In this document: in pieces, positions 25,989 through 33,067 of the stretch
Position numbering within the stretch: the stretch's first letter is position 1
Layout: every line of letters starts with the position of its first letter
Assembly (NCBI RefSeq): GCF_900048895.1
Contig: NZ_LT160634.1
Span: 1-64,000 of the forward strand
Source: Neglectibacter timonensis
GTDB taxonomy: Bacteria; Bacillota; Clostridia; Oscillospirales; Acutalibacteraceae
DNA: 64,000 nucleotides
Direction of reading: 5' to 3'
Notes under the pieces: model-generated
What the model was told of the DNA's origin: nothing
Databases searched by the model: none
What the model saw: only the letters and a program-made list of their open reading frames with translations
Made by a program: the position numbers and the translations under genes

Positions 25989-26129
25989 AGAGGGTCGGGG
26001 CGGACAGAGGACCGAGTTCTCCCACAAGGCCCGGAGCGGTCGGTTAAGTGCGGACAAGGCTGCCGGTTCCATGGGAAGCTTCGGAAGCGATTGGGAAAGA
26101 AGTAAAAGAAAGAAATGAGGTTATACGGC

Positions 26130-27920
26130 ATGAGCCAATACAGGACACATACCTGCGGCCAGCTTCGTCTGGAGCATGCAGGAGAGACGGTCACCCTTTC
26201 AGGTTGGATGGAAAATCTTCGTGAGGTGGGCAGCAACTTTGCCTTTCTGGTTCTGCGGGATTTCTACGGCGTCACCCAGGTGGTGCTGGAGACCGAGGAG
26301 ATGGTTTCAAAGGTTAAGGCGTTGAATAAGGAATCCACCCTGTCCGTCACCGGCGTGGTGCGGGAGCGCAGCAGCAAAAACCCCAAACTGGATACCGGAG
26401 ACATTGAGGTGGTACCCTCAGAGATCACAGTGCTGGGCCGCTGCCGTCATAATGAACTCCCCTTTGAAATCAATTTTTCCAGGGATGCGGATGAGAGCCA
26501 GCGGCTGAAATACCGTTATCTGGATCTGCGAAATCCCCAAGTGAAAGGGAATATTGTACTGCGCTGCCAGGTTGTCTCAGCCCTGCGCAGGGCTATGGAA
26601 GAACAGGGGTTTCTGGAGATCACCACGCCCATCCTCACAGCATCCTCTCCGGAGGGAGCCCGGGACTATCTGGTGCCCTCCCGGAAGCATCCTGGTGAAT
26701 TTTACGCACTGCCCCAAGCGCCCCAGCAGTTTAAGCAGTTGCTGATGACCGCCGGATTTGACCGCTATTTCCAGATAGCCCCCTGCTTCCGGGATGAGGA
26801 CGCCCGGGGGGACCGCTCTCCCGGCGAGTTCTATCAGCTGGATATGGAAATGGCCTTTGCCGGACAGGAGGATGTGTTTGCCGTTCTGGAAGATGTGCTT
26901 CCTCCCATCTTTGCCAAGTACGGTGCGTACCATGCCGCATCCCAGGCTCCGTTCCGCCGCATTCCCTATTTTCAGGCAATGGAGGAATTCGGCACTGATA
27001 AGCCGGACCTGCGCATCGACCTGCGGGTCAGCGACGTGACCGCCCTGCTTTCCGGCTGTGGTTTTGCTCCCTTTGAAGAGGGCGTGGTGAAGGCCGTGCC
27101 TGTATCGGACTGTAAGCTCCCGCGCAAGGCTGTAGATAAGCTCTGTGCTGACGTGGAAGTACAGGCCGGACAGAAGCCCTATTGGTTCAAGATGGATGAA
27201 AAGGGAGAGATCGCAGGCGGAGTGGCCAAATTCATCAACGCCGATCCTGCCCGCGCCCAGGCGCTTACGGAAGCGCTGAATCTCAAGCCCAATACCCTGG
27301 TATTCCTGTCCGCTGGCACTCTGACGGAGGCCAGAAAGACGGCCGGCGTTATGCTGAAGCTGTTGGGCGCTGCCTGTGAGGGTCATATGGACTGGGAACG
27401 CTATGAGTTCTGTTGGATTGTGGATTTCCCCCTCTATGAGATCGGGGAGGAATCCGGGGAGCTGGAATTCTGTCACAATCCTTTTTCCATGCCTTCAGGC
27501 GGCATGGAGGTCCTGGAAAAGGCTGAGCGTGGGGAGTTGAATCCGTTGACCATCCTGGCGGAGCAGTACGATTTGGTCTGCAACGGCGTGGAGCTCTCCT
27601 CCGGCGCGGTGCGGAACCATGATCCGGAGATCATGGTGAAGGCTTTCGAGCTGGTGGGACTGGGTGAAGAGGATGTCAAAGCGAAGTTCCCCGCCATGTA
27701 TCATGCTTTCTGCTACGGCGCGCCGCCCCATGCGGGAATCGCTCCCGGCGTAGACCGCATGGTCATGCTGCTTTCCGGTGAAAGTTCCATCCGTGAGGTC
27801 ATCGCGTTCCCCATGAATAAGAGCGCCCAGGATGTGATGATGGGGGCTCCCTCCCAAGTGGAGCCGGGCCAGCTGGATGAATTGGGCATCGAAATTGTGA
27901 AACATCAGGAGAAAGCCTGA
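26130..27920 (+). CDS. aspS: Aspartyl-tRNA synthetase (bacterial type)
   Basis: The protein charges tRNA-Asp. I chose ATG 26130 (MSQYRTHTCGQL), 8 bases after GAGG, over the in-frame ATG 26115, which lacks a good site. The 596 residues give an N-terminal OB-fold (VTLSGWMENLREVGSNFAF), class II motif 2 (CFRDEDARGDRSPGEFYQLD), the bacterial GAD insertion and motif 3 (GVDRMVMLLSGESSIRE). It matches the Asp specifier of the T-box leader 2.3 kb upstream. Confidence 0.97.
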   Translation: MSQYRTHTCGQLRLEHAGETVTLSGWMENLREVGSNFAFLVLRDFYGVTQVVLETEEMVSKVKALNKESTLSVTGVVRERSSKNPKLDTGDIEVVPSEITVLGRCRHNELPFEINFSRDADESQRLKYRYLDLRNPQVKGNIVLRCQVVSALRRAMEEQGFLEITTPILTASSPEGARDYLVPSRKHPGEFYALPQAPQQFKQLLMTAGFDRYFQIAPCFRDEDARGDRSPGEFYQLDMEMAFAGQEDVFAVLEDVLPPIFAKYGAYHAASQAPFRRIPYFQAMEEFGTDKPDLRIDLRVSDVTALLSGCGFAPFEEGVVKAVPVSDCKLPRKAVDKLCADVEVQAGQKPYWFKMDEKGEIAGGVAKFINADPARAQALTEALNLKPNTLVFLSAGTLTEARKTAGVMLKLLGAACEGHMDWERYEFCWIVDFPLYEIGEESGELEFCHNPFSMPSGGMEVLEKAERGELNPLTILAEQYDLVCNGVELSSGAVRNHDPEIMVKAFELVGLGEEDVKAKFPAMYHAFCYGAPPHAGIAPGVDRMVMLLSGESSIREVIAFPMNKSAQDVMMGAPSQVEPGQLDELGIEIVKHQEKA

Positions 27921-28034
27921 CGAAACCCTGGGCGGCACCCGCCTTTCGTCAGTCTTCGTCTGGAAAATAAAGAGGAAAATCGCCTCCGGCCGGTTTGTGA
28001 AACCATGTCGGGGGCGGTATATTTTGCGCTATTC

Positions 28035-28071
28035 ACACTAAAAATGTCTTAAAATACACTATATATAGTAT
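28035..28071. promoter_or_regulatory. Tandem NrdR boxes
   Basis: ACACTATATATAGTAT (28056-28071) matches the NrdR-box consensus closely, and ACACTAAAAATGTCTT (28035-28050) is a weaker copy. The centres are 21 bp apart, two helical turns. The strong box abuts the -35 hexamer. NrdR represses ribonucleotide reductase genes when dATP is high. Confidence 0.85.
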
Positions 28072-28099
28072 TGACAGAAAGCGGTCTGGGCTCTATAAT
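28071..28099 (+). promoter_or_regulatory. Promoter of nrdD
   Basis: TTGACA (28071-28076) and TATAAT (28094-28099) are both perfect, with 17 bases between them. The transcript leader before nrdD is about 170 bases. No known riboswitch was recognised in it. Confidence 0.88.
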
Positions 28100-28277
28100 A
28101 AAAGTCGTTCTCCCTTGGGTGTTTCTGTATGAGAGCTAGGGGAATTTTTTTCCTTGAGCCTTTGGCCCTGTAAGCGGAGGCACGGATGGGATTTGAGAGT
28201 GTGCGTGACGTGTGTGGAAAACATACATCCGGATAAGGCGGAAATCTTCGAGAGAATTAAGAAAGAGGAATGGATAC

Positions 28278-30575
28278 ATGCTGAAAACGGTCGTTAAAAG
28301 AAGCGGGGAAAAGGTCCCCTTTGACGCATCTAAAATACGCGGCGCAATTTTCAAGGCGAATGTGAGAATTGCCACAGAAAAGTTCAGTGAGGCGGAACTG
28401 GACCGGCTGACGGATGAAGTGGTGGAGGCTGCGGGTAAGCTGCGGACCACCCCTACGGTGGAGCAGATACAGGATATCGTGGAGGAGAAGCTCATTGAAT
28501 CCGATTACGCAAAGACCGCCAAAGCCTATATCCTGTACCGGGCAGAACATCAGAAACTGCGGGAGATGGACGACGAGCTGGTAAAGATCTATTCCGCACT
28601 GACTTTTGTGTCAGCCGAGGATGTGGACCTGAAGCGGGAAAATGCCAACATCAATGCGGATACCGCTATGGGAACCATGCTCAAATACGGCTCTGAGGGA
28701 GCAAAGAGCTTTTATGATAAGTATGTCATCCCCCCCCACATTGCCAAGGCTCACGCCGACGGCGATATCCATATCCATGACAAGGACTTTTACACTCTGA
28801 CGGAGACTTGCTGTCAAATCGATCTGCTGAAGCTTTTCCACGGTGGTTTTTCCACGGGACACGGTTACCTGCGGGAGCCCAAGGATATCCGCAGCTATGC
28901 GGCGCTGGCCTGCATTGCCATCCAGGCCAATCAAAATGAGATGCACGGCGGCCAGAGCGTGCCCAATTTTGATTATTCCATGGCGGAAGGTGTGGATAAA
29001 ACCTACCGCAAGGAATATTTCAAAGCACTTATTGAATTTTTGCAAATTCGAAAGGGCATGTCCTATGAGGATGCGGAAGCCCTGATCTCTGCGGCGAAAG
29101 AAGAACTGGGGGACGACGTCACCATGGGCAGCGCCTGTGCATACAGCGAACGCTTTGCCGAATATCTGCCCCGGCATCAGCGGGAGAACGGTTTTGAGGA
29201 GATCACTGAGGAAGAGGCAATGGATGCCGGCTCCTATGCGGAAAAGACTGCGTGGAGAGAGACGGACAAGGCTGCCTACCAGGCGATGGAGGCCCTGGTG
29301 CACAACCTGAATACCATGAATTCCCGTGCAGGCGCACAGGTCCCCTTCTCCTCGTTGAACTATGGCACCGATACTTCCGAGCAGGGCAGAATGGTTGTGC
29401 GCAATTTGCTGCTGGCCACAGAGGCAGGCCTGGGCGATGGGGAAACCCCGATCTTCCCGGTACAGATTTTTAAGGTCAAGGAAGGGGTCAACTATAATGA
29501 GGAAGACCCCAACTATGATCTGTTCAAGCTGGCTATGCGGGTGTCTGCAAAGAGACTGTTCCCGAACTTCAGTTTTATTGACGCGCCCTATAACCTGCAG
29601 TATTATAAGCCTGGGGATTATGATACGGAGGTAGCCTACATGGGCTGCCGCACCAGAGTGATGGGGAATGTGCATGATCCTAAGAGAGAGGTCACCTGCG
29701 GCAGGGGCAACCTGAGCTTCACGTCCATCAACCTGCCCCGTATCGGTATTGAGGCGGAAGGGGACGTCAAGAAATTCTACCGGATTCTGGATGATAGAAT
29801 CGAAGTGGTGGTAGAGCAGCTGCTGCACCGCTTCAAAATTCAGTGCAGCAAAAAGGCTTATAACTACCCCTTCCTCATGGGGCAGGGCGTGTGGATCGAT
29901 TCGGAAAAGCTGGATCGCAACGACTCCGTAGCGGAGCTTTTAAAGCATGGAACACTTTCCGTAGGCTTTATCGGTCTGGCTGAGACCCTCAAAGCGTTGA
30001 CAGGCAAGCACCACGGAGAAAGTCAGGAAAGCTACAATTTGGGCTTGGAAATTATCACCTATATGAGAAAACGGATGGATGAGCTGTCTCAGCAGACAGG
30101 CCTGAATTTCACTCTGCTTGCCACTCCGGCCGAAGGCCTCTCCGGCAGGTTTGTGCGTATCGACCAGAAAAAGTTCGGCAAAATTGAGGGTGTGACGGAT
30201 CGGGAATACTACACCAATTCCTTCCATGTACCGGTCTATTACCCCATCAGCGCCTTTGAAAAAATAAAAAAGGAAGCCCCCTTCCACGCGCTGACCAATG
30301 CAGGCCATATCAGCTATGTGGAGTTGGACGGGGATATCTGCAAGAATGTGGATGCCTTTGAAAGCGTGATCCGCTGCATGAAAGAGGCCGGCATTGGATA
30401 CGGTTCGGTCAACCATCCGGTGGACAGAGATCCGGTTTGCGGCTACAACGGGATTATCGACGAGACCTGTCCCCGCTGCGGCAGGCATGCAGGCGAGGGA
30501 GTACCGGTGGATAAATTGCTGGAGCTGCGCAAGAAATATCATGATGTGCCGGATTATTCCCATTTGATTCGGTAA
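28278..30575 (+). CDS. nrdD: Anaerobic ribonucleotide reductase catalytic chain lacking the glycyl-radical tail
   Basis: The 765-residue class III enzyme reduces ribonucleoside triphosphates. The start is ATG 28278 behind AAGAGGAA. Residues 1-95 form an ATP-cone (VVKRSGEKVPFDASKIRGAI) for allosteric control, followed by the barrel with AYMGCRTRVMGN and CGRGNLSFTSINLPRIG. Near the C-terminus is the zinc region PVCGYNGIIDETCPRCG, with three cysteines where four are usual (the first CxxC is DxxC here). The chain then ends in YHDVPDYSHLIR with no RxxGY glycyl-radical motif. That motif is in the next gene. The two chains must act together. Confidence 0.93.
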   Translation: MLKTVVKRSGEKVPFDASKIRGAIFKANVRIATEKFSEAELDRLTDEVVEAAGKLRTTPTVEQIQDIVEEKLIESDYAKTAKAYILYRAEHQKLREMDDELVKIYSALTFVSAEDVDLKRENANINADTAMGTMLKYGSEGAKSFYDKYVIPPHIAKAHADGDIHIHDKDFYTLTETCCQIDLLKLFHGGFSTGHGYLREPKDIRSYAALACIAIQANQNEMHGGQSVPNFDYSMAEGVDKTYRKEYFKALIEFLQIRKGMSYEDAEALISAAKEELGDDVTMGSACAYSERFAEYLPRHQRENGFEEITEEEAMDAGSYAEKTAWRETDKAAYQAMEALVHNLNTMNSRAGAQVPFSSLNYGTDTSEQGRMVVRNLLLATEAGLGDGETPIFPVQIFKVKEGVNYNEEDPNYDLFKLAMRVSAKRLFPNFSFIDAPYNLQYYKPGDYDTEVAYMGCRTRVMGNVHDPKREVTCGRGNLSFTSINLPRIGIEAEGDVKKFYRILDDRIEVVVEQLLHRFKIQCSKKAYNYPFLMGQGVWIDSEKLDRNDSVAELLKHGTLSVGFIGLAETLKALTGKHHGESQESYNLGLEIITYMRKRMDELSQQTGLNFTLLATPAEGLSGRFVRIDQKKFGKIEGVTDREYYTNSFHVPVYYPISAFEKIKKEAPFHALTNAGHISYVELDGDICKNVDAFESVIRCMKEAGIGYGSVNHPVDRDPVCGYNGIIDETCPRCGRHAGEGVPVDKLLELRKKYHDVPDYSHLIR

Positions 30576-30640
30576 GGAAAACGACTTATAACAGCAGGGC
30601 TGTCTCCGTGGGCAGCCGCAAAATGAAAGGAAGGTAATTT

Positions 30641-30835
30641 ATGACTAAGACAACAAAATCCGCACAGAGCACGAAAGCTGTTTCGACAGAAAATCAGGTA
30701 CTCGTAGGCGAAGGCCGTGATTTTGAACGGATCCGCCGCATTACCGGCTATCTGGTCGGCACCATCGACCGTTGGAACAACGCCAAGCGCGCCGAGGAAC
30801 AGGATCGGGTAAAGCACACTCTGTCAAGCCTGTAA
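30641..30835 (+). CDS. Separately encoded glycyl-radical domain of NrdD
   Basis: This 64-residue protein has its own AAAGGAAGG and ATG start, 65 bases after nrdD. Residues 31-60 match the C-terminal end of class III ribonucleotide reductases: RRITGYLVGT then DRWNNAKRAEEQDRVKH. Gly36 is the predicted radical site activated by NrdG. The first 28 residues are a Thr/Ser/Lys-rich leader with no match I recognise. A small hairpin GGCTG..CAGCC (30598-30617) lies between the two genes. The layout recalls the YfiD/GrcA spare part of pyruvate formate-lyase, but here the main chain has no radical site of its own. surE starts three bases after its stop. Confidence 0.88.
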   Translation: MTKTTKSAQSTKAVSTENQVLVGEGRDFERIRRITGYLVGTIDRWNNAKRAEEQDRVKHTLSSL

Positions 30836-30838
30836 GCG

Positions 30839-31597
30839 ATGCATATTCTACTGGTCAATGATGATGGAATTCATTCTCAGGGCTTAAAGCGGCTGGCCTT
30901 ATCCCTGGCGGAGAAGCATGAGGTGACTGTGGTGGCTCCGGATGGGGAGCGCAGCGCCATAGGCCACGGGATTACTCTTCGGCGTCCGCTGTTTGTTCAG
31001 GAAGCTTTTTGGTCAGAGCAAATAAAGACGTATGCGATTTCGGGAACGCCCGCAGACTGTACCGGTTTGGGTTTGGATGCGCTGACGGAAGGACCGGTAG
31101 ACCTGGTAATTTCCGGGCCAAACGACGGCCCCAATACGGGCACGGATCTGCTTTATTCCGGCACGGTGTCGGCAGCGCTGGAGGCGGCAATGCTGGGAAA
31201 GAAAGCTTTGGCCTTGTCTGCGCCCCACGGGGCTGATACGCGGGCAGTTGTGGAGATATTTCTGCAGATTTTAGATCAGCTTGATTTGGAACAGGATGTA
31301 CGGCACGCGCTTAATATCAATATTCCGGCGCTGCCCGGTGAAAAGCTTAAGGGTGTCCGTTGGGCGCCCCAGGAACTTGTCCAGTGGACAGAGGAAAAGT
31401 ACGAGCGGCGGATGACTCCGGACGGAAGGCTTTCTTATTGGCCTGTTCTTCGGGAGATGCCGCCTGTGCAGAACGAAGCCTCCGATATCGATTGTCTGAC
31501 AGAGGGCTATGTTTCACTCACCCCGCTCACCTTCTGTATCACAGATTCCTCAGGCTTCCGGGAGAAAGAGTTTCAGATTTCTTTCGGCGGACGGTAG
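30839..31597 (+). CDS. surE: 5'/3'-nucleotidase SurE
   Basis: SurE dephosphorylates nucleoside monophosphates and is linked to stationary-phase survival. The 252 residues contain the metal site VNDDGIHSQGL, APDGERSAIGHGIT, and the SGPNDGPNTGTDLLYSGT block with its conserved Asn and Ser. It starts three bases after the radical-domain gene, so it is part of the nrdD operon. A strong terminator follows. Confidence 0.95.
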   Translation: MHILLVNDDGIHSQGLKRLALSLAEKHEVTVVAPDGERSAIGHGITLRRPLFVQEAFWSEQIKTYAISGTPADCTGLGLDALTEGPVDLVISGPNDGPNTGTDLLYSGTVSAALEAAMLGKKALALSAPHGADTRAVVEIFLQILDQLDLEQDVRHALNINIPALPGEKLKGVRWAPQELVQWTEEKYERRMTPDGRLSYWPVLREMPPVQNEASDIDCLTEGYVSLTPLTFCITDSSGFREKEFQISFGGR

Positions 31598-31666
31598 CAG
31601 GAGCGGCTGTCATCCGGTTCTGCCGCTATTTCTGCGGAAGGAACGGATATCTCTGAAAAACTGCAG

Positions 31667-31694
31667 CGGGCCGTTTTTAACGGCCCGTGTTTTT
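31667..31694 (+). terminator. Terminator after surE
   Basis: CGGGCCGTT (31667-31675) pairs with AACGGCCCG (31679-31687) and is followed by TGTTTTT. It closes the nrdD-surE operon. Confidence 0.9.
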
Positions 31695-31697
31695 CTG

Positions 31698-31951
31698 GGC
31701 AAACTCTGAATAAATCCGAAGGTGGGTTTGTAGAGGAAATTTAGCCTGCAGCCGGAAAAAGCCGCACGTATGCCGGCGCATTTAAAATCGCCAAAGGTGT
31801 CTTTGAAGCAGTTGCGGGGTACTTCTACGTGAGGACGCCGCCTGGGAATCCGGAACGAGTGATTCAGCGGATATCCGGGATGTGTAATGTTGCAGCGCGC
31901 CCTGACGGAAAGAGGGAGCACGTAACTTTGGGCTTGGGAAAGGAAAAGCGT
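31698..31951 (+). other. Leader region of nrdG, no gene seen
   Basis: About 250 bases separate the surE terminator from nrdG. No promoter of good quality, riboswitch or convincing coding frame was found, although an open frame reaches back to 31829 in phase with nrdG. The conserved start of nrdG (ELKIAGVVKESIVDG) is at 31952, so the upstream part is probably not translated. Confidence 0.4.
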
Positions 31952-32449
31952 ATGGAATTGAAAATAGCAGGAGTCGTGAAGGAGTCAATTGTGGATGGAA
32001 GGGGAATTCGCTATACAGTTTTTACCCAGGGTTGTCCCCATCACTGCCCGGGCTGCCATAATCCACAGACACATGACTTCTATGGAGGCAAAACGGTGGA
32101 GGTGGGGGAACTGTTTGAAGAATTTCAAAAAAACCCGATGCTCAAAGGCATGACCTTCAGCGGCGGTGAGCCCTTCTGCCAGCCGGAACCGCTGGCGGAA
32201 TTGGCCAAACTGGTGCACGGGATGGGGAAAGATGTGACTGTGTTCAGCGGCTGGACCTATGAGCAGCTTCTGGAAAAGCATGACCCACAGGTGGATGCCC
32301 TGCTGCAGGAAACGGATGTGCTGATCGACGGGCCTTTCCTGGAGGAGCAAAAAAACCTGGAATTGGCATTTCGCGGCAGCGAAAACCAGAGGGTGATCGA
32401 TTTGAAAGAAACACGGCGGAAAGGACAGCTTGTGCTGCTGGATGTATAA
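31952..32449 (+). CDS. nrdG: Anaerobic ribonucleotide reductase activating protein
   Basis: This radical-SAM activase installs the glycyl radical of class III reductase. The 165 residues start at ATG 31952 behind GGAAAGGAAAA. The 4Fe-4S motif is GCPHHCPGCHNPQTH (CxxxCxxC), followed by the SAM-binding MTFSGGEPFCQPE. Its target here should be Gly36 of the small radical-domain protein rather than the large chain. It lies outside the nrdD operon, beyond the surE terminator, on the same strand. Confidence 0.95.
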   Translation: MELKIAGVVKESIVDGRGIRYTVFTQGCPHHCPGCHNPQTHDFYGGKTVEVGELFEEFQKNPMLKGMTFSGGEPFCQPEPLAELAKLVHGMGKDVTVFSGWTYEQLLEKHDPQVDALLQETDVLIDGPFLEEQKNLELAFRGSENQRVIDLKETRRKGQLVLLDV

Positions 32450-32509
32450 AAGCCAGACTGTCCCGTACTCTACAGTTGGAAGGCAGAACAGACAAGATAA
32501 GCAAAACGT

Positions 32510-32555
32510 AAAATCCTCCTGGAAGGGCTGCATTGAGCCCTTCCAGGAGGATTTT
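32510..32555. terminator. Bidirectional terminator
   Basis: A near-20-bp perfect stem (AAAATCCTCCTGGAAGGGCT with its complement) closes the loop GCATTG. It serves nrdG on the plus strand and the convergent Spo0A-like gene on the minus strand. Confidence 0.9.
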
Positions 32556-32593
32556 GTCTGTGCCGTTCCGTAACCAGAACGGCATGTCCCTTT

Positions 32594-32935
32594 TCAGCGC
32601 AGCTTAATGGTACCGCCGGCAAGATAATTGGCGAGCAGGAAAATCACATCGCCGGGAGTTACATCGTTCATTCCGATCCGGTTCAGCAGAACCTGAAGCT
32701 TTCCGTATTCCAAAATCTGTTTGACGGACTTTGCGATGGCACGGGAAACGGTACGGTCTGAAACCCCGTCCGGCGCACCGATCTCTCCATAGAGCTGCAT
32801 CAAACCCTTTGCGGGAAATTCCCCTTTTTCCAAAACTCTCCGCACAGCCTCCTCTAGGTATTTCATACCCACACCGGTGCGGTACTCGGCAATTTTGTCG
32901 AGCAGGCTTCCAACATTTTCTTGATCTGGGACCAT
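32594..32935 (-). CDS. Stand-alone Spo0A C-terminal-domain-like protein
   Basis: The 113 residues resemble the DNA-binding effector domain of the sporulation regulator Spo0A: YRTGVGMKYLEEAVRRVLE corresponds to the G..G..YL..AI helix, and LYGEIGAPDGVSDRTVSRAI to the recognition region with its RVERAIR-like end. No receiver domain is present, so it cannot be phosphorylated like Spo0A. A role as a regulator in the cytoplasm is inferred. The AT-rich upstream region (32990-33055) carries two TAATTTTGAC copies on the minus strand that could be operators. The match is by eye, so moderate confidence. Confidence 0.6.
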   Translation of the reverse strand: MVPDQENVGSLLDKIAEYRTGVGMKYLEEAVRRVLEKGEFPAKGLMQLYGEIGAPDGVSDRTVSRAIAKSVKQILEYGKLQVLLNRIGMNDVTPGDVIFLLANYLAGGTIKLR

Positions 32936-33067
32936 GAAATAGCACCTCTTTCGAATGAAATCGGCTAACTATACCATAATTTCCCATAATTTATACAAAC
33001 TTGTCAAAATTAGTCACTTTATTCGCTAAATCGTCAAAATTACTCTTGCAGCCACAACCGGCTGAGT

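Follow-up and report, generated by a model that had tools for sequence, protein, structure and literature searches.

In class III ribonucleotide reductases, the activase NrdG makes a radical on a glycine of NrdD, and the radical then passes to a cysteine. In the NrdD of P. copri (PDB 8p23), the radical is located at Gly711 of 739 residues, the zinc site lies before the radical loop, and the glycyl-radical domain is mobile and is ordered in the active monomer (PMC11226230). For another glycyl-radical enzyme, pyruvate formate-lyase (PFL), small proteins acting as spare parts have been described, namely YfiD (GrcA) of E. coli and Y06I of phage T4 (PMC8683613). According to Andorfer et al. (2021), only these two have been validated, spare parts for other enzymes are possible, and YfiD is activated only when cleaved PFL is present (PMC8683613). 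Here we analyzed a stretch of 64,000 nucleotides of Neglectibacter timonensis (the window; NZ_LT160634.1, contig C8 of a 3.67 Mb genome), in which an nrdD gene and the short tail gene behind it very likely encode a single class III ribonucleotide reductase divided over two polypeptides, as judged from their sequences.

Reductases in pieces have been reported in two other settings. The split class II reductase NrdJa-NrdJb also consists of two chains encoded in one operon and both needed in vivo, but it depends on B12, and NrdJb carries out dithiol exchange and has no radical (PMC4520616). The 2015 paper calls NrdJab the only split reductase found in a non-viral organism (PMC4520616). Phage nrdD genes may also occur in several pieces. 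The gene of Aeromonas phage phiAS4 is fragmented, with no intein found and for reasons given as unknown (PMC3653736), and in a Jug phage no splicing was seen between fragments of 230 and 91 aa (PMC12363816), the latter of which could be a similar free tail. However, in most split phage nrdD genes the interruption is an intron, an intein or an endonuclease gene, and splicing has been shown for some of them (PMC3653736; PMC12363816), whereas the cellular split loci described below have a short spacer and are cut just before the glycyl loop. In the open-access literature searched, there was neither a cellular split class III reductase nor an NrdD spare part, most subscription papers and the RNR database being outside the search.

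The large chain of the window (765 aa; 28278..30575, forward strand) was assigned by its Pfam NRDD domain, ATP-cone and motifs. It contains an ATP-cone at residues 4-92, the NxN flap asparagines Asn122 and Asn124, Cys457 in the MGCR motif, and a zinc ribbon (CGY...CPRCGR) followed by a C-terminal extension of 29 residues. We take Cys457 to be the thiyl-radical cysteine and the ribbon cysteines to have their usual zinc-ribbon roles; with the NRDD domain and the flap, the chain then has the catalytic-domain features of a class III NrdD. The NxN asparagines, the MGCR motif and three zinc-ribbon cysteines, all present here, did not vary among 30 chains, fused as well as split (the flap takes its name from that of P. 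copri NrdD, PMC11226230). The large chain covers positions 1-530 of the 562 positions of the Pfam NRDD profile (639.5 bits), and no RxxGY motif was found in the 29 residues past CPRCGR. The C-terminal glycyl-radical motif that a class III NrdD carries on the same chain is located in the next gene instead.

This tail gene (30641..30835, forward strand) codes for a small chain of 64 aa that matches positions 531-562 of the NRDD profile (E 2.7e-8, above the curated cut-off), so that the two chains share out the profile with no position missing. The small chain consists of a split-type N-terminus (VGEGRDF), the glycyl-radical loop RRITGYLVG and the NrdD C-terminal tail, and its proposed radical glycine is Gly36 (codon 30746-30748). 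Between the two genes lies a spacer of 65 nt (30576..30640) that follows a TAA stop, and the tail gene is in a shifted frame, with the ribosome site AAGGAAGG (30627-30634) 6 nt ahead of its ATG. These results agree with the preliminary description of this DNA, which had claimed that the NrdD chain lacks an RxxGY end, that the next gene with its own ribosome site encodes the radical tail, and that the intact frames, 65 bases apart, are no simple frameshift. The large chain aligned with P. copri NrdD in two stretches (residues 1-247 and 321-738), which span the shared ATP-cone, NxN flap, MGCR cysteine and zinc ribbon. This match stops at position 706 of the 8p23 chain. Given Gly711 as the radical site, the window chain ends past the zinc ribbon a few residues before the glycine, and the glycyl loop is on a second polypeptide; the offset is approximate, since the solved chain has 743 residues, probably because of an N-terminal addition.

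Like YfiD and Y06I, one bacterial and the other from a phage, the small chain is a small separate protein whose homology is to the radical-bearing end of an enzyme of the glycyl-radical type. In contrast to them, it is homologous to NrdD and not to PFL, and it appears to be a missing subunit and not a spare, because the adjacent NrdD is tail-less and the one full-length NrdD of the cell is a distant paralogue. Pfam matches of the small chain up to E 0.1 were to NRDD only, and those in NCBIfam to NrdD models only; without homology to the PFL glycine-radical domain, it does not belong to the GrcA family. The window enzyme may therefore be regarded as a variant class III reductase that would work like the GrcA family without being a member of it. 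The activase gene nrdG (31952..32449, forward strand) lies near nrdD and matched the radical-SAM model TIGR02491 with 145.1 bits, above the cut-off of 126.1, and its product would install the glycyl radical.

The same arrangement was common among relatives. We scored 75 split loci, or 71 after dropping the duplicates L215, L221, L225 and L232, and the two genes were intact, co-directional, under selection and recurrent as a pair, in most cases directly ahead of nrdG (for 55 of 70 relatives, nrdG was part of the retrieved DNA; for the other 15, some of the retrieved pieces stop short). In a sample of 150 genomes of the family, counted by hand and leaving out G039 and G144, which are cut by contig ends, a tail gene stood beside a tail-less large chain in 24 genomes, and a full-length NrdD of the same subtype occurred in 40; G077 has both arrangements. 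Tail matches, fused and separate ones pooled, were obtained in 65/147 genomes of the order, 57/196 of the class and 102/299 of the phylum. Further named split loci belong to Bacilli, Anaerovibrio, Megamonas, other Selenomonadaceae-type records, Mailhella and a Fibrobacter metagenome-assembled genome (MAG), and in the draft of Desulfovibrio sp. RUI265 two large chains without tails and two tail genes are spread over four different contigs (a set of 14 named genomes in the analysis was hand-picked). Thus, the comparison with related genomes suggested in the preliminary description indicates that the split is widespread and not peculiar to this genome. Binning error is not the cause, since records with strain names, including Scatolibacter rhodanostii, Anaerovibrio slackiae, Anaerovibrio sp. 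RM50 and Gemmiger sp. An87, also contain split loci. Two tail genes about 0.5 to 3.5 kb apart were observed on G222:C58, G240:C23 and G279:C7.

The 32-codon core of the tail showed a median dN/dS of 0.09 over 1,874 pairs (dS 0.2-1.5) from 180 loci, a set that takes in separate and viral tails and a few duplicates or contig-edge fragments. Such strong purifying selection excludes an unrelated chance reading frame. A FastTree phylogeny of 125 large chains (42 fused, 83 split; L045 was scored as split, and 16 duplicate locus ids together with L001-L003, L205 and L210 were left out) required at least 11 fused/split changes by parsimony, with weak support for some deep nodes. This suggests that the division is ancient or repeated and that the enzyme switches readily between the two forms.

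Several genomes appear to rely on the split enzyme. Of 32 genomes selected for having a separate tail, 24 gave no match in a scan with PF02867 for class I/II reductases, which was positive in 11 of 14 reference genomes used as control. PF17975 gave no match in 14/14 genomes, the control being positive in only 1/14 reference genomes. When 13 of the genomes selected for a separate tail were searched again with NRDD, exactly one tail-less large chain and one tail were obtained in ten (G125, G132, G081, G036, G031, G090, G123, G044, G100 and G198; 96-100% complete), and the other three (G054, G101 and G207) had a further NRDD match. In these ten genomes, including G125 of the same genus as the window's genome, the split NrdD is the only ribonucleotide reductase recognized by these models, which makes it very probable that the two chains function together as an enzyme. 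G100 is of particular use here. Its large chain (L261, G100:C10), directly followed by nrdG, ends SERIKRLI-stop where relatives continue FERIRRITGY, and the only tail of this genome is an 87-aa protein on another contig (L211, G100:C16).

Separate tails are also present in cells with a complete NrdD, the situation expected of a spare part. Among the 40 family genomes with a full-length NrdD, 14 have a second, separate tail gene (G020, G082, G120, G114, G124, G074, G119, G106, G103, G091, G024, G105, G001 and G051). This count leaves out L208 (contig edge), L210 (assembly gap), L212 (a MAG 59% complete), L209 (no full-length NrdD found) and L211 (G100). The gene is about 5 kb from nrdD in G105, and on another contig or distant in the other 13. 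In alignment, the 14 proteins carry about 50 extra N-terminal residues with shared motifs (N-domain), and the radical glycine was invariant in all 22 aligned N-domain tails, whose profile matched the C-terminus of the 8p23 chain. The longer N-domain form also serves as the tail of split NrdD in Selenomonadaceae-type genomes. For the N-domain tail L163, AlphaFold2 (18 alignment rows) predicted a beta-alpha-beta-beta domain, the block means for residues 1-60 being 73-85. In the PDB, Foldseek gave no match to this model at E <=0.001, and the best VIA-align hit was the ToxR periplasmic domain with Z 5.5, a level that the tool rates as common by chance. Two neighbors at each of ten loci were searched, and 19 of the 20 matched Pfam families, for example tRNA synthetases, transporters, spore germination and sugar-related proteins, none of them a phage protein. 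Separate tails of other kinds beside a full-length NrdD were found in six genomes of other families (G735, G759, G586 with two tails, G647, G611 and G685). These separate tails are probably spare parts of NrdD, to judge by homology and genomic context.

The phage copies extend this pattern. From 409 viral relatives, 80 were kept, some of them near-identical copies, and the tail was in its own frame in 67, fused to NrdD in 12 and at the locus edge in one (L111). Whole-contig searches of 46 hand-picked loci gave a tail without other NrdD in 36, fused NrdD in two and both parts in eight; many of these contigs are fragments, and absence of NrdD from them is not proof. Ten neighbor proteins on five viral contigs gave matches that include tail fibre, three endolysins, an integrase and a terminase, indicating that at least several of the tail copies are inside phage genomes. 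The viral contig L045 has the reversed order, with the tail gene before the large chain. In Eggerthella phage EL753P1 (OP172808; L233, 6560-7240), inspection by eye showed a split nrdD with a long intein-like insert after MGC; its tail is unannotated, and the small frame ends just before the GY motif, with the remainder in another frame.

An alternative is that the separate and phage tails play no part in repair and instead act as decoys, as inhibitors or as regulators, in competition for the barrel or for NrdG. Repair by separate tails is predicted from sequence and analogy, the 36 of 46 viral contigs carry a tail without NrdD, and the tail, lysis, integration, packaging or replication genes nearby on the five contigs mark a setting where host-manipulating genes are common. 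Nevertheless, the radical motif is kept with its invariant glycine, and in G100 a protein of this kind is the sole tail. Separate tails were also more similar to the full-length NrdD tail of their own genome than the average pairing was (mean 0.79 vs. 0.66 for all pairings; permutation p 0.0005, 20 pairs, G105 omitted), as were the 13 pairs within the family (0.84 vs. 0.79, p 0.0005), although this likeness may reflect co-inheritance rather than interaction, because common descent of both genes can produce it. Overall, we regard such competing roles as unlikely, though less so than the other two alternatives considered below.

Several points weigh against the two-chain enzyme. PF02867 matched in 8 of the 32 separate-tail genomes (with the large chain of G247 and G262 outside the check), including G095, which means that not every such genome depends on the split enzyme as its only reductase. 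Genome completeness values are estimates, an unrecognized reductase may be present in the ten genomes, and many of the relatives are MAGs. An AlphaFold2 model of the L189 pair, entered in frame as large chain, TAG read as Q, and small chain (30 alignment rows), had a mean pLDDT of 80.5 but block means of only 31-55 over residues 751-820 in the tail region, so that it speaks neither for nor against docking. Finally, the window's own genome has one further NrdD, which is full-length and of a distant subtype (L002, G000:C13:781486-786183), so the split enzyme need not be the sole reductase here. According to the preliminary description, a full-length nrdD elsewhere that carries the activity would refute a two-chain enzyme; a full-length copy, which may or may not carry the activity, does exist on contig C13 and is a distant paralogue of the window chain (local segments 22-30% identical), and an NRDD search found no distant full-length copy in G125 of the same genus. 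By eye, L002 has the motif RITGYYRPV and ends RITGYYRPVQNWNDGK, followed by a C-terminal CPNC segment that resembles a fused thioredoxin or glutaredoxin, and a radical-SAM-like (activase-like) gene lies just upstream.

The full-length paralogue could mean that the window's nrdD has lost its tail as a pseudogene, with the C13 copy in use and the small frame a remnant. This is very improbable, as both frames are intact, dN/dS of the tail core is about 0.09, G125 and nine other genomes have the split enzyme only, and the arrangement is common to 71 non-redundant loci.

Equally improbable is that the frames are joined into a one-chain NrdD by programmed frameshifting, stop read-through or the removal of an intron or intein. 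A clade of Bacilli does have a single in-frame stop, often TAG, between the large frame and the tail frame, and phage nrdD genes are interrupted by introns or inteins (PMC3653736). Yet across the 71 loci the gap between the genes ranged from 1 to 411 nt, the tail frame, counted from that of the large chain, was 0 in 24 cases, 1 in 28 and 2 in 19, and the large chain ended with TAA in 40, TAG in 16 and TGA in 15. The tail gene has a start of its own (ATG in 69/71, GTG in 2/71), and a ribosome-site motif preceded the chosen start in 70/71, a figure biased upward by a script that picks the start with the best motif and accepts short ones. Several of the TAG stops form part of a TAGGAGG-like ribosome site, and tail and large chain are on different contigs in G100 and in the draft genome G533. 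An nrdD interrupted by an intron or intein was rejected on the basis of the 65-nt spacer, with no Rfam family at gathering score in positions 26000-33000 of the window, and of the 1-411 nt spacers of relatives. In the class-level search, an in-frame TAA inside the NrdD tail match was noted in G372 and G474, which belong to one genus.

The gene order around the split nrdD is aspS, nrdD large chain, tail gene, a surE-like gene and nrdG, with aspS and surE assigned by eye. The gene between the tail gene and nrdG (30839..31597, forward strand), named from reading its sequence and not from a family scan, presumably codes for a SurE-like nucleotidase; among the loci scanned, a gene of this type was in this position only in the window, L114, L115, L117 and L213. 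The nearest named relatives of the tail gene belong to Neglecta, Acutalibacter and Scatolibacter, the last of which is placed in Oscillospiraceae, Clostridia, by the NCBI taxonomy. Upstream of nrdD, a consensus scan matched a sigma-70-type promoter-like site at 12/12 positions (TTGACA-17-TATAAT, 28071..28099, forward strand), which is likely the promoter of the nrdD operon; the scan of the region gave 6 sites vs. 3.6 expected from shuffles. A strong promoter match was absent from the window's own spacer (best 6/12), and among spacers of >=50 nt a match of >=10/12 was found in 7 of 28 vs. 0.54 expected from shuffles. The spacer is predicted to fold into a hairpin (GGCTGTC-TCCGTG-GGCAGCC, 30598-30617) that did not recur in 11 relatives folded, some of which have other hairpins by eye.

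Taken together, the preliminary proposal of a two-chain enzyme with a replaceable radical part stands in its first half, which is strongly supported by the architecture, the selection and the ten sole-reductase genomes, while a YfiD-like swap of the part damaged by oxygen is plausible, the occurrence of separate tails in genomes with a full-length NrdD adding support to it. In the two-chain enzyme, the large chain would provide the ATP-cone, the NxN flap, the zinc ribbon and the barrel that holds the thiyl cysteine, and the small chain the glycyl loop and the C-terminal tail. The small chain would dock so that its Gly36 loop lies inside the barrel beside Cys457, and NrdG would form the radical on the small chain while it is bound to the large chain. 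If oxygen cleaves at the glycine, only the 64-residue subunit would need replacing. In phages, and in cells with a complete NrdD, the separate module would most likely repair the oxygen-cleaved NrdD, like YfiD and T4 Y06I, and a safety rule like that of YfiD, activated only with the cleaved enzyme present, would suit the split NrdD too. Where the built-in tail is lost, as in G100, the spare would become an essential subunit, and the repeated changes between one and two chains would be explained in this way. There may be, at about even chances, a general system of exchangeable parts, with the tail as a permanent subunit in many anaerobes, a repairing spare with a recognition domain in others, and a stand-alone phage gene that supports the deoxynucleotide supply in the host.

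In a number of the strict anaerobes studied here, no reductase other than NrdD was found. A single attack by oxygen at the glycine costs the cell a chain of about 700-800 residues, and a separate radical subunit would make repair cheap. The two-chain form would also allow the radical part to be produced, labelled, mutated and exchanged independently of the barrel. The finding bears on a point that the literature leaves open, namely whether spare parts exist beyond pyruvate formate-lyase (PMC8683613), and from the phage copies one would predict that viruses of anaerobes protect the nucleotide supply by this means.

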